NCBI GenBank assembly: GCA_028065725.1
Contig: JAPTVL010000420.1
Coordinates: 1-64,000, forward strand
DNA length: 64,000 bases
Source of the DNA: Betaproteobacteria bacterium
Lineage (GTDB): Bacteria; Pseudomonadota; Gammaproteobacteria; Burkholderiales; Rhodocyclaceae
Direction: 5' to 3'
Position numbers and translations under genes: made by a program. This document shows positions 52,876 through 58,865 of this stretch, one piece after another (positions within the stretch are counted from its first letter, which is position 1; each line of letters starts with the position of its first letter). The notes below the pieces were generated by a model. It saw only the letters and a list, made by a program, of their open reading frames with translations, had not been told where the DNA came from and ran no database searches.

Positions 52876-52965
52876 ATGCTGAGCTACCGCCACGGTTACG
52901 GCAAACGCGGCGGCCTCGAGTCCCTTCTAACAGGCCTTTCGGGACGTAATCATCGATTTCGATGA
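52876..52965 (+). pseudogene. Orphan 5' end of rlmJ (left island junction)
   Basis: The frame starts ATGCTGAGCTACCGC and encodes MLSYRHGY, the same first eight residues as intact rlmJ at 57999, then departs (GKRGGLES...) and ends at 52965. It uses GC-rich codons like the host genome, so it is the original start cut off by the island. Confidence 0.8.
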
Positions 52966-53075
52966 CGAAATCCGTCAAACTTCGACGTGACTATTGAATC
53001 GGAGCAAAACCAGTAGACTACGAGCGAATCATATTTCGCGAATTCAAGTCGTTGAGATCAGGGAATAGGTCAACC

Positions 53076-55160
53076 ATGTTGCGTTCAACATTCCAACGGA
53101 TTTTGCGCGGTATCAGTGCAGATCGCGAGGCTGAGTATTGGAAACGAGGAATCCTATCGTGGGATGACTTCGAGAAAATCGTACTCCAGCAGGCAGACCT
53201 TTTCTCAGCCGCATCCGGTCCGCACGAGATTGGACCGTTTGCCAAAGCAAGACATGCGCTGAACACGAATGAAGTTACCTACTTTGGTGAATTGCTGGAC
53301 CGGCGCGAGCATTACCGAATTCCCCTCTCGTTCCCTGAAAAAGTCATTTTTCTCGACATTGAAACAACGGGACTAAGTCGGTACTACGACTTCGTCACGC
53401 TTATCGGTTGGTCTTACCAAGGAAAATTCAATATCTATGTGCAGGGAGGTGACGAGGCGCCGTTGCGCGCAGCGCTTGCCGACGCAAGCGTCATAGTTAC
53501 CTTTAACGGCTCCTTGTTCGATCTTCCTTTTCTTCGCGAAGCATTTCGCGATCTGCCTATACCACCCATACACGTTGACCTAAGATTTCTCGCTAAACGG
53601 GTCAACCTAGCTGGAGGACAAAAAGCGATCGAGGAGGAAACGGGATTCAAGCGTCCCGCACGACTAGCTGAGATCAAGGGCGAGAGCGCGCCGATCCTCT
53701 GGCACCTATATCGTCGCGGTGACCTGAATGCACTAAAGCTCTTGGTGGAGTACAACTACTGCGACATCTTGGGCATGAAATTCATCTTCGACAAGGTCAT
53801 CGAGCGACTATTGAAGCAACTCAATGTACCCGCCAGCATTCGTAGGGAGATTCCACAATTCTTCTCCAAGAGGGAGTCCTTGCCATCCGAAACAACGACA
53901 TGGACCAAGAGCGTATTTCGGTCGATCAATGTTCCCTTGTATGAAGGAAGATCCGGACCTGAAATCACACTAGATAAGCTTTCCATCAACGATACATTTC
54001 CCCTGCGAGTTGTAGGCATCGACTTGACCGGATCGGAAAACCGTCCTTCTGGTTGGTGCTTACTTGACGGGCCAGAAGCTACCACTCGTACCATCAATAC
54101 AGACGACGATCTCATAGCAGTAACAATGGCTGCTAGGCCACATATCGTTTCCATAGACTCGCCGCTATCACTGCCAAAAGGTAGAACATCGGTATTTGAC
54201 GACGATCCTGGACGAAATGAGTACGGGATCATGCGGCACAGTGAACGACTGCTAAAGAAGAGGGGTATAAACGTTTACCCAGCTCTTATACCAAGCATGC
54301 AGCGATTAACCGCAAGAGGCATACGGCTCGCTTCACGTTTTCGAAGCCTCGGAATGCCCGTTATCGAGAGCTATCCCGGCGCAGCCCAAGACATAATGGG
54401 AATCCCGAGAAAACGTGCCAGCTTGGATATGCTGCGAGATGGTCTCGCAGAGTTCGGAATTCGAGGAGATTTTCTGAAAACACAAGTCAGCCACGATGAA
54501 CTTGATGCGATCACGTCTGCTGCCGTTGGAGCCTTTTTTTGGAGCGGGAAGTTTGAAGCGCTCGGCATTGAGAAGGAAGAGGCATTGGTCATTCCCGACT
54601 TGGAAGTTAGCCCCGAGTCATGGCGGGAAAGAATCGTAGTAGGGATAAGTGGTAACCTTGCCGCCGGCAAAACCACATTTGCTCGCCACTTGGAAAGCTG
54701 CGGATTTCACTATATCCGCTACAGCATGATACTAGAGACATTGATGCAAGAAGAAGGCCGTGAAATCTCTCGATGGGCGTTGCAGAACTTCGGCGATGAA
54801 GTCCATAGAGAACGTGGACAAAGATGGCTCGGACGCAGACTACTGGAATCATTGCCGAAGAATGGAAACGTGGTTATCGACGGCCTACGCTTCGCCGACG
54901 ATTACGCATTTTGGGTCGAAGCCTTCGGACCGGCTTTCCACCATGTCCACATTGAGACTAAAGAGGAGTTTCGCAAGATCAGATTCAATGATCGTGAAAC
55001 CGATGGAGTAACCTTTGAGCAAGCTCAATCACATCCGGTTGAGCAGCAGGTGAAAACTCTCCGTGGGCTGGCACATCACTTGTTATCGAATAATAAGTCA
55101 ATCCAAGACTTGCGTGCGAGTATCGCCCAAGTGGTTCCCCCCAATATTGTTGAGGTGTGA
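53076..55160 (+). CDS. YprB-type RNase H-like exonuclease / DUF429 / P-loop (d)NMP-kinase-like fusion
   Basis: The 694-residue protein appears to have three domains. Residues about 10-240: YprB/RNase_H_2 DEDD nuclease with FLDIETTGLSRYYDFVTLIG, VTFNGSLFDLPFL and LVEYNYCDILGM. Residues about 300-500: DUF429 RNase-H-like fold with VVGIDLTGSENRPSGWCLL, IVSIDSPLSLPKG, VIESYPGAAQDIMGIPRK and SHDELDAITSAAVG. Residues about 515-670: P-loop kinase with Walker A GISGNLAAGKTTFARHL, NVVIDGLRFADD and an R..R lid, resembling dephospho-CoA or deoxynucleotide kinases. First gene of the island operon; ATG at 53076 chosen by YprB homology. Its TGA is followed directly by the next ATG. I know no such fusion. 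Confidence 0.8.
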   Translation: MLRSTFQRILRGISADREAEYWKRGILSWDDFEKIVLQQADLFSAASGPHEIGPFAKARHALNTNEVTYFGELLDRREHYRIPLSFPEKVIFLDIETTGLSRYYDFVTLIGWSYQGKFNIYVQGGDEAPLRAALADASVIVTFNGSLFDLPFLREAFRDLPIPPIHVDLRFLAKRVNLAGGQKAIEEETGFKRPARLAEIKGESAPILWHLYRRGDLNALKLLVEYNYCDILGMKFIFDKVIERLLKQLNVPASIRREIPQFFSKRESLPSETTTWTKSVFRSINVPLYEGRSGPEITLDKLSINDTFPLRVVGIDLTGSENRPSGWCLLDGPEATTRTINTDDDLIAVTMAARPHIVSIDSPLSLPKGRTSVFDDDPGRNEYGIMRHSERLLKKRGINVYPALIPSMQRLTARGIRLASRFRSLGMPVIESYPGAAQDIMGIPRKRASLDMLRDGLAEFGIRGDFLKTQVSHDELDAITSAAVGAFFWSGKFEALGIEKEEALVIPDLEVSPESWRERIVVGISGNLAAGKTTFARHLESCGFHYIRYSMILETLMQEEGREISRWALQNFGDEVHRERGQRWLGRRLLESLPKNGNVVIDGLRFADDYAFWVEAFGPAFHHVHIETKEEFRKIRFNDRETDGVTFEQAQSHPVEQQVKTLRGLAHHLLSNNKSIQDLRASIAQVVPPNIVEV

Positions 55161-57285: not shown

Positions 57286-57914
57286 TAAGGCTCTCGACGC
57301 CCATTCAGGCTCATCGAATCGAAATTTGTGGCGGCATAGCATCGGGGAAGACCACTCTAGCGAACTTGCTGGTCGGCCTCGATATTTTGCCCATTCGCGA
57401 GAATTTCCAGGTGAATCCGTTCTGGCGATCTTTTTACGCTGATCCTTTAGGTACAGCTTTCGAAACAGAAGTCAGCTTCCTCCTTCAGCACTACCACGAC
57501 ATCAAGGACGCCAGTCGGCTGGAAAGGCTGGTCGCGTGCGACTTCTCCCTCTATTTGGATCTTTCATACGCACACGTAACGCTTCCTCCAGCAAAGTGCA
57601 GGGCGTTCATGGCTGTCTATCGTGAAATCAAACATGAACTTGGTGTTCCGTCACTCCTCATCCATCTCAGATGTGACCCGAAAGTTGAGCTAGAACGGAT
57701 CCGACGTCGAGGAAGAAAAGTTGAAAAACCAATTACCTTAGGATATTTGCAAGAGATCAATACCCATATCGTAAAGGCGCTGACTGCAACGAATCTTGTC
57801 AACGGAATTGTCGAAATAGATAGCGGCCTACTCGACTTTGCACACGATGCGGGAGTACAGGATATTGTCCTTAGGCAAATTCACCAAAAACTCACCGCAT
57901 TGAACGTTGTTTAG
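57282..57914 (+). CDS. Deoxynucleoside kinase-like protein
   Basis: The 210-residue protein has Walker A EICGGIASGKTTLANLLVGL, then ENFQVNPFWRSFYADPLGTA (the E.F..NPF...FY.DP box of dNKs), a helical region with LERLVACDFSLYLDL, a conserved LLIHLRCDPKVELERIRRRG lid and RRGRKVEK. These are dNK-family hallmarks; substrate is unknown. The start is a TTG overlapping the previous stop by four bases; no ATG is usable. It is last in the island operon, 84 bases before rlmJ. Confidence 0.8.
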   Translation: MIRLSTPIQAHRIEICGGIASGKTTLANLLVGLDILPIRENFQVNPFWRSFYADPLGTAFETEVSFLLQHYHDIKDASRLERLVACDFSLYLDLSYAHVTLPPAKCRAFMAVYREIKHELGVPSLLIHLRCDPKVELERIRRRGRKVEKPITLGYLQEINTHIVKALTATNLVNGIVEIDSGLLDFAHDAGVQDIVLRQIHQKLTALNVV

Positions 57915-57998
57915 TCAATTGCGAAAGCGAAGCGCAGCAAAATCCGCCATAACGACGTTCCATACCAAGATGCACCATAAGACTTTACCTGTTACCAG

Positions 57999-58865
57999 AT
58001 GCTGAGTTACAGACATGGTTACCATGCGGGGATGCACGCCGACGTCCTCAAGCACCTGGTGCTGACGCTGTGCCTGCAGCACATGAACAGCAAGGACAAG
58101 CCCTACCTGTTGCTCGACACCCATGCCGGCGCCGGCGTCTACACCATCGATTCGGAGCAGGCGAAAAAGACCGGCGAATATCTCGACGGCATCGCCCGGC
58201 TGTGGAACCGGGCCGACCTGCCGGCGCCGATGAAGCCCTACATGGATGCCCTGCAGGTCTGCAGCGGCGGACTGAAACTGCGCCGCTACCCCGGCTCACC
58301 CTGGCTTGCCGCGCACTGCGCGCGCGACATCGACACGCTGCGTTTTTGCGAACTGCACTCGACCGACTTCGCCCTGCTGCGGCGCCAGTTCCGCGACAGC
58401 GGACGCCGCGTCAAGGTCGAGCAGCACGATGGCTTCGAAGCCATGAAGGCGGCCCTGCCGCCACCTTCGCGGCGCGGCCTGGTGCTGATCGACCCCTCCT
58501 ACGAAATCAAGAGCGACTACCTGAAAGTCATTGCCGCGATCAAGGATGGGTTGAGGCGCTTTGCCACCGGCAGCTATCTGGTCTGGCTGCCCTTCCTGCC
58601 CAGCATCGAAGCGCGGGCCCTGCCCGAAAAGCTCAAGAAGCTGCCTGCCGACTGGCTCTACGCCAGCCTCAGCGTGCGCGGCCCGGCCACCAGGGGCCAC
58701 GGCATGAGCGGCAGCGCGATGTTCATTGTGAACCCGCCGTGGACGCTCAAGAATGCGCTGGAGGAGTCGCTGCCCTGGCTGGCGCAGGTGCTGGCGCTGG
58801 ACGAGAAGGCAGGATGGACGGTGGAGGTATCGCCTGCCGGGACCGCCAAGCCCCGCGCCGATTAA
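57999..58865 (+). CDS. rlmJ: 23S rRNA (adenine(2030)-N6)-methyltransferase RlmJ
   Basis: The 288-residue Rossmann methyltransferase has MLSYRHGYHAGMHADVLKHL, SAM-site LLLDTHAGAGVYTID and catalytic LVLIDPSYEIKSDY (Ser where many have Pro). It methylates A2030 of 23S rRNA. The first eight codons (AGT, AGA, CAT) are AT-richer than the rest and come from the island; from codon 9 the gene is host-like. It ends seven bases from the convergent aacS. Confidence 0.92.
   Translation: MLSYRHGYHAGMHADVLKHLVLTLCLQHMNSKDKPYLLLDTHAGAGVYTIDSEQAKKTGEYLDGIARLWNRADLPAPMKPYMDALQVCSGGLKLRRYPGSPWLAAHCARDIDTLRFCELHSTDFALLRRQFRDSGRRVKVEQHDGFEAMKAALPPPSRRGLVLIDPSYEIKSDYLKVIAAIKDGLRRFATGSYLVWLPFLPSIEARALPEKLKKLPADWLYASLSVRGPATRGHGMSGSAMFIVNPPWTLKNALEESLPWLAQVLALDEKAGWTVEVSPAGTAKPRAD

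Follow-up and report, generated by a model that had tools for sequence, protein, structure and literature searches.

Introduction

Viperins make 3′-deoxy-3′,4′-didehydronucleoside triphosphates (ddhNTPs), which are incorporated to the harm of phage polymerases. Kongming is composed of the deaminase KomA, the HAM1 protein KomB and the SIR2 protein KomC. Its immune signal is deoxyinosine triphosphate (dITP), and a phage kinase takes part (PMC12948488). Here we describe a four-gene operon in a 64,000-nucleotide stretch (the window) of contig JAPTVL010000420.1, assembly GCA_028065725.1, from a Betaproteobacteria bacterium. The operon occupies an AT-rich island at 52876–58022 and encodes a predicted exonuclease/DUF429/nucleoside monophosphate (NMP) kinase fusion (A), a PurZ-clade synthetase (B), a DCD-fold membrane protein (C) and a member of the deoxynucleoside kinase (dNK) family (D). 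The logic that we propose for it resembles that of Kongming, in that a noncanonical deoxynucleotide is made, raised by kinases and sensed by a relative of a nucleotide enzyme (PMC12948488). Unlike in Kongming, the kinase domains of the island lie in the operon itself, and no adenosine deaminase, HAM1 or SIR2 domain is found among the Pfam matches (E up to 1) of the four proteins.

The gene set, the kinship of B with PurZ and the loss of the deaminase glutamate from C are solid. Antiviral defence is the probable function of the operon; immune signalling by a noncanonical deoxynucleotide is our best reading of it, one that could as well fall as stand.

Results

The operon recurs in distant phyla

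All four genes lie on the plus strand: A at 53076–55160, B at 55161–56183, C at 56191–57285 and D at 57282–57914. In the list of open reading frames (ORFs) A and B are separated by 0 bases and B and C by 7, and C overlaps D by 4. The GC content in 500-base windows is 0.436–0.554 in the island versus 0.574–0.692 in the displayed flanks. ORFs, GC windows and domains all bear out the compact, AT-richer four-gene block, with gaps of 0 to 7 bases or overlaps, that an initial annotation had noticed from the sequence alone.

A profile of A retrieved at least 135 relatives from a one-genome-per-species collection (a lower bound, from exact peptide patterns), and the best 80 of 135 were analysed. In 76 of the 80 loci B comes directly after A; it lies elsewhere in the locus in two (L051, L052), and no B was found in two others (L027, L069). 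C is present in 73; it was not found in four loci with room for it (L021, L027, L069, L074), and three contigs end too early. The carriers include Nitrosomonas, Bradyrhizobium, Sphingomonas, Nostoc, Terriglobia, Chloroflexota, Methanophagales and Lokiarchaeota, and the set spans Proteobacteria and Cyanobacteria to archaea. Since the gene order recurs in distant phyla, the four-gene arrangement is not a product of chance. The initial annotation had proposed to seek this order elsewhere and had allowed that the genes might prove scattered and unrelated in other genomes; the order is recurrent and the set is conserved. Protein searches at E ≤ 0.001 gave 2281 relatives of C and, from a capped set of candidates, at least 3292 of A.

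No description of the gene set was found in openly licensed PMC papers, a scope outside which subscription papers and most preprints fall, or in PADLOC 2023. A phage origin of the set was considered and rejected: no relative of A or C was confirmed in viral_contigs, C is in no phage record, and the phage matches of B are below 60% identity. Two of the loci, from a Dehalococcoidia (L023) and a Binatia (L024) metagenome-assembled genome, have identical scores and lengths through the operon, which reflects either recent transfer or a binning error.

B shares a clade with phage PurZ

B was characterized by Pfam, NCBIfam and PDB matches, alignments and trees, and has an adenylosuccinate synthetase domain (PF00709, E 1.7e-46). 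PurZ is marked by the replacement of the catalytic Asp13 by Ser or Gly (PMC12884076, from its section 24). The residue is Ser in the window and in 63 of 73 locus rows (ORFs above 400 bits) and Gly in the remaining 10, giving 64 Ser and 10 Gly of 74; the Gly13 proteins are the archaeal members. In the comparison sets, position 13 is Asp in 14/14 PurA and Ser in 9/9 phage PurZ sequences. B and phage PurZ also align in an insertion after PIRV, a feature described for PurZ in PMC8342488.

In a tree with a PurA outgroup (26 of the 73 B rows and the window, 5 of 14 PurA rows and 2d7u, and 9 phage rows) B and phage PurZ form one clade with support of 100/100. A larger outgroup tree, to which L149, L152 and three of the eight plasmid fusions described below were added, unites B, phage PurZ and the fusions with the same support (100/100). 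Midpoint rooting of a tree of 34 of the 73 B rows, the window, 13 of 14 PurA rows and 9 phage rows (L101 was dropped as partial, with masked letters) leaves four B rows, of archaeal and acidobacterial origin, on the side of PurA (89/76); with the PurA outgroup all B rows, these four among them, join phage PurZ (100/100). Residue 13 and the trees rule out that B is an ordinary PurA. The PurZ-like enzyme with Ser13 of the initial annotation is thereby upheld, and its alternative, a B that groups with ordinary PurA, is not what the trees give.

Within the clade, phage PurZ appeared nested inside B in the first outgroup tree (96/92), a placement that we did not adopt because a single B clade is not rejected there (approximately unbiased test, p 0.225). 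The larger tree, in which fusions and further rows are included, gives B as a single group (92/80) and splits phage PurZ into two lines; so we claim no more than that phage PurZs lie among the cellular and plasmid proteins. The fusions take the deepest branch in this tree. B has matches in 218 phage records, every one below 60% identity, and the phage records that cover most of B, among the matches listed, are 31–39% identical to it. PADLOC-DB 2023 models gave no match for B. A further PurA-family gene is present elsewhere in 15 of 16 carrier genomes searched and was not found in the other (G014).

B thus shares with phage PurZ and PurZ0 the fold, Ser or Gly for Asp13, the insertion after PIRV and a common clade; it differs from them in being cellular or plasmid-borne, in its partners and in having Ser40 instead of Ala. 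In section 24 of PMC12884076, the base of the PurZ group is occupied by four PurZ-related archaeal sequences that have Ser or Gly; these may belong to the operon type described here.

C is a predicted membrane protein that has lost the deaminase glutamate

Pfam and NCBIfam matches, a structure model and alignments were used for C. Its residues 36–222 (56296–56856) are predicted to adopt the dCTP deaminase/dUTPase fold, the domain scores (DCD, 0.00064; TIGR02274, 1.2e-6) both falling under cut-offs. Pro157 occupies the position of Glu138 of E. coli Dcd. Pro is found at this catalytic column in 77/77 ungapped rows (of 79 rows), and in a separate alignment Glu138 aligns with Pro in 25/25 C rows. 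Sequence, model and homologue hydropathy point to a transmembrane helix at about residues 259–281 (56965–57033), inside a long helix formed by residues 229–319; 74 of 75 C rows longer than 270 residues have one to three predicted transmembrane helices. The DCD/dUTPase-fold membrane protein that had been proposed for this position is consistent with both the model and the predicted helix. Because it lacks the deaminase glutamate, C is better read as a sensor than as a deaminase.

Cam1 is a CARF-membrane effector of type III CRISPR, and the layout that we propose for C, a ligand-binding domain with a membrane helix, is like that of such effectors; the sensor fold of C is unrelated to theirs and the island has no CRISPR gene. 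The fold of residues 36–222 is common to dCTP deaminase and dUTPase enzymes, including the dUTPase-like DutZ of PurZ0 phages, from which C differs by Pro for Glu138 and by its added membrane helix and coiled coil. Phage enzymes with the dUTPase fold accept dATP and dGTP (PMC12884076, as given in section 20). Matches of C in PADLOC-DB 2023 have E 0.0015 or worse. Two C homologues are present in each of five loci (L033, L036, L037, L052, L070), some on the opposite strand, and C seems to duplicate independently of A and B.

A and D supply predicted kinases

A was delineated from its ORF, Pfam, a homologue alignment and structure matches. Its listed start is a TTG at 53052; in most aligned homologues the first residue corresponds to the ATG at 53076. 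The N-terminal part matches RNase_H_2 (E 4.6e-25) over 53346–53798 (residues 99–249 of the TTG-started ORF) and is predicted to be a DEDDy exonuclease, with D102, E104, D157, Y234 and D238 invariant in 27/27 aligned rows. The nearest solved structure to this region is MrfB, a repair nuclease. It is like the MrfB/YprB exonucleases in this part and unlike them in being fused to DUF429 and an NMP kinase. The DUF429 region (54015–54587; Pfam E 0.0019, under cut-off) is strongly conserved among homologues; the structure listing, which was filled by kinase rows, held no fold match of its own for DUF429 and says nothing on its fold. The C-terminus (54630–55148) matches AAA_18 (E 1.7e-7) and is predicted to have the NMP kinase fold. 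Against PADLOC-DB 2023, A has weak matches to PDC-S44 over the DUF429 region (2.1e-6) and to dCTPase over the kinase (1.9e-5). The exonuclease part of A is found alone, at 33–37% identity, in plasmid records of Halorussus, Haladaptatus and Halomicrococcus (H32–H41).

D starts with TTG and matches PF01712 (dNK; 3.3e-19) and deoxynucleoside kinases in the PDB; its PADLOC-DB 2023 matches have E 0.0015 or worse. The initial annotation was right about the family, and its inclusion of D as a regular member of the set has to give way to an optional one: D is present in 24 of the 80 loci and has no room in 13. The kinase domain of A is present in 71/80 loci, and four of the nine loci without it have D.

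A kinase–PurZ core with changing partners on plasmids

A fusion of an NMP kinase with a PurZ-type domain, of ∼ 535 residues, is found in eight plasmid records from Rhizobium, Agrobacterium, Sinorhizobium and Methylobacterium. The kinase profile of A scores 53–79 bits against the three fusions tested. Relatives of the fusion, in the best 120 of 3886 (a total that includes plain PurA types), all have 519–567 residues, and 119/120 have Ser13. DUF7002 directly follows the fusion in 8/8 fusion records and also occurs in two records without it. B and C, without a match to A, are found in three plasmid records of Sinorhizobium medicae. Neighbourhoods were examined in seven of the eight fusion records (L150 has no annotation) and two of the three Sinorhizobium B–C records. 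An HD protein that belongs to phrog_318, a family of phage dNMP phosphatases (three tested), and is weakly like dATP triphosphohydrolase lies beside or near 8/8 annotated plasmid loci (six fusion, two B–C); the 80 genome loci had none nearby. What recurs as a core is thus an NMP kinase together with a PurZ-type enzyme, and the partners change. We infer from the fusion that the kinase acts on the product of PurZ, and the change of partner suggests that this product is handed to different effectors.

Six of the plasmid records (L151:5449–7741, L153:5449–7732 and L154–L157) have a second PurZ-type system, with the fusion, DUF7002, the HD dNMP-phosphatase relative and a conserved protein of 452–458 residues that had no Pfam match in the two copies scanned.

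Genomic context

In 56 of 66 loci the operon exceeds its flanks in AT content by more than 2 points, and in two it is the richer in GC; at the median, its GC content lies 6.7 points below that of the flanks. Of the 80 loci, 12 have tyrosine integrases within 7 kb, 10 HsdS, 10 HsdM, five HsdR and seven RlmJ; of 20 control regions searched with the same profiles, one has HsdM and none has any of the others. These profiles were seeded from case flanks and the control covers 300 kb versus 835 kb, both of which favour the cases. A test free of case seeding, with Pfam HsdR (PF04313), placed the family within 7 kb of 4/50 loci (L045, L046, L048, L077) versus 0.086 expected from 30 matches of at least 90 bits (P 2e-6, or 0.0035 with three alike loci counted once); the family is present in 27/50 genomes. 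The operon is likely to be mobile. Defence-type neighbours at single loci are SIR2_2 (L004) and ABC-3C (L044); annotated plasmid neighbours are SIR2, DUF87 and AbiE (L154), and AbiJ-NTD4 and RelA/SpoT (L151).

Discussion

Noncanonical-deoxynucleotide immune signalling by the operon could proceed as follows. Upon phage infection, the putative trigger, the predicted exonuclease of A would possibly release deoxyguanosine monophosphate (dGMP), which B would convert into a 2-aminoadenine-type deoxynucleotide. The predicted kinase domain of A, plus D where present, would phosphorylate this product, and host PurB and nucleoside diphosphate kinase would complete the path to dZTP, the deoxynucleoside triphosphate of 2-aminoadenine (Z). 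By analogy with the chemistry of its family, PurB would convert the succino-monophosphate, dSMP, to dZMP. C would then sense the modified nucleotide and act on the membrane, with membrane damage as the result. The initial suggestion that the operon makes or senses an unusual deoxynucleotide, perhaps against phages, stands as the best-fitting reading. In its favour we count the recurrent gene set, residue 13, the insertion and the clade of B, the lost glutamate and predicted membrane helices of C, the PurB genes beside the set in three archaeal loci, the plasmid fusions and B–C pairs, the signs of mobility and the defence-type neighbours; dITP in Kongming and the dUTPase-fold phage enzymes that accept dATP and dGTP are precedents. 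More tentatively, we speculate that dZTP or its succino form is an immune second messenger, made on infection by cellular PurZ–kinase modules and passed on to effectors that can replace one another (DUF7002 or a membrane protein that is a pseudo-deaminase), and that the phage Z-genome synthetase came from the cellular PurZ pool; this extended version is conceivable and on balance doubtful. If true, the signalling reading would widen immune signalling by a new chemistry, that of purine deoxynucleotides in 2-amino or succinylated form, and give PurZ a cellular role and the enzyme behind Z-genomes a cellular source; a family now annotated as adenylosuccinate synthetase becomes open to direct testing. 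A noncanonical deoxynucleotide triphosphate sensed by a dead nucleotide enzyme is already known from Kongming, though no Kongming domain is found in the four proteins.

Several observations weigh against signalling. B scores 231.3 bits with the NCBIfam PurZ model NF038379, under its cut-off of 300; among NCBIfam models it scores highest with one of archaeal PurA type (255 bits, under its cut-off too), and its best PDB score, to archaeal PurA (158.6 bits), is just above that of PurZ0 (152.2). Going by the residues that PMC8342488 gives for phage PurZ, position 40 is next to the base pocket; it is Ser in 73/74 B rows and Ala in PurZ and PurA, so the substrate of B may differ from dGMP. C retains the DPG Asp in 75/77 ungapped rows and might, on that alignment, still hydrolyse nucleotides. 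D was not found despite room in 43/80 loci. The exonuclease and DUF429 activities of A are predictions only, and we infer the substrates of B, C and the kinases, the signal, the trigger and the role in defence. Three archaeal loci (L074, L075, L078) have a PurB-like lyase beside the set. In the two from Methanophagales (L074, L075) it is the best PurB found in the genome and may therefore be the housekeeping copy. Finally, PADLOC scans of neighbours (124 of 274 selected neighbours, out of 656 flank ORFs in all, near-duplicates L024, L045 and L048 being omitted, and 120 of the 140 ORFs from control regions) failed to tell cases from controls (136 and 105 model families), and generic PADLOC models fire in control regions too. 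On the defence neighbourhood that had been proposed as a check, HsdR (4/50 loci versus 0.086 expected) and the HsdS, HsdM and integrase counts speak for enrichment, and these scans against it.

Much the same enzymes would be needed if B and the kinases made a succinylated or 2-amino deoxynucleoside triphosphate that harms phage polymerases, with C limiting or localizing the toxin. The kinase fused to PurZ would fit such a poison, as would the toxicity to E. coli that PMC8342488 gives for the Z-cluster of phages. The same paper has most polymerases accepting Z without trouble, C (in 73/80 loci) combines a missing deaminase Glu with a membrane helix, and the partners vary while the enzyme core stays; we regard a poison nucleotide as unlikely. 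Every part of the operon points to nucleic acid or nucleotide metabolism, and MrfB is the nearest solved relative of the exonuclease, as would suit a non-immune role in salvage, pool cleaning or DNA repair in which A degrades damaged DNA, with B, D and C recycling or clearing unusual deoxynucleotides. Such a role sits poorly with the AT-rich operon in 56/66 loci, the integrases and type I restriction genes nearby, the further PurA-family gene in 15/16 genomes and a deaminase-dead membrane protein in the set, and is equally improbable. A PurZ-clade enzyme and nucleases sharing one operon might also mark host DNA with Z or a derivative, A attacking DNA that is unmarked. None of the four proteins matches DatZ, MazZ/DUF550 or a Z-polymerase, and nearly every complete copy has one membrane-anchored member, which makes self-marking very improbable indeed.

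Probable insertion site and minor features

The PurB-like lyase directly follows D in L075 and L078; in L074 it follows a B fragment, and C and D were not found there. The genome of the Lokiarchaeon L078 also encodes a canonical PurB at another place, which scores 490.7 bits and passes the cut-off; its copy beside the operon scores 303.1 and does not. In L080 the only strong PurB of the genome is just upstream of A. A gene E of ∼ 250 residues ('RYVGDxGDFAKY'; for example L037:12825–13568) lies between or beside B and C in 19/80 loci by profile, one of them a fragment, and has no match in Pfam, NCBIfam, PHROGs or PDB.

A reading of B as a PurA of the 7-deazapurine type, such as the PurA relative on a Rhizobium leguminosarum plasmid (L152), was considered and rejected: the L152 protein keeps Asp13 and groups with PurA. 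It lies in a cluster (L152:5375–12938) of folE, the PurA relative, purB, queE, IMP dehydrogenase, nitrile hydratase, queC, HAD and phosphoribosyltransferase genes, which we take to be a toyocamycin/sangivamycin-type 7-deazapurine cluster. Such clusters likewise have a short PurA relative beside purB; unlike B, the L152 protein has Asp13, the PurA grouping and surrounding deazapurine genes.

The island is bounded by two copies of the 24-bp rlmJ 5′ end, both on the plus strand. The left copy (52876–52899), an att-like direct repeat, is identical at 20/24 bases to the right copy (57999–58022), which begins an intact rlmJ ORF (57999–58865). Because this complete ORF runs on from the right copy, rlmJ is preceded by the island and not broken: the insertion 'in' rlmJ noted initially was not a disruption. 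The repeat pattern fits site-specific insertion; the Pfam scan of the four island ORFs gave no integrase family match. A search for repeats of this kind at the other seven loci linked to rlmJ was without result. In these seven of the 80 loci (L012, L044, L057, L059, L060, L063, L070), and in 0/20 controls, rlmJ adjoins the operon, as in the window, which makes this a neighbourhood of repeated insertion in alpha- and zetaproteobacteria and probably in betaproteobacteria.

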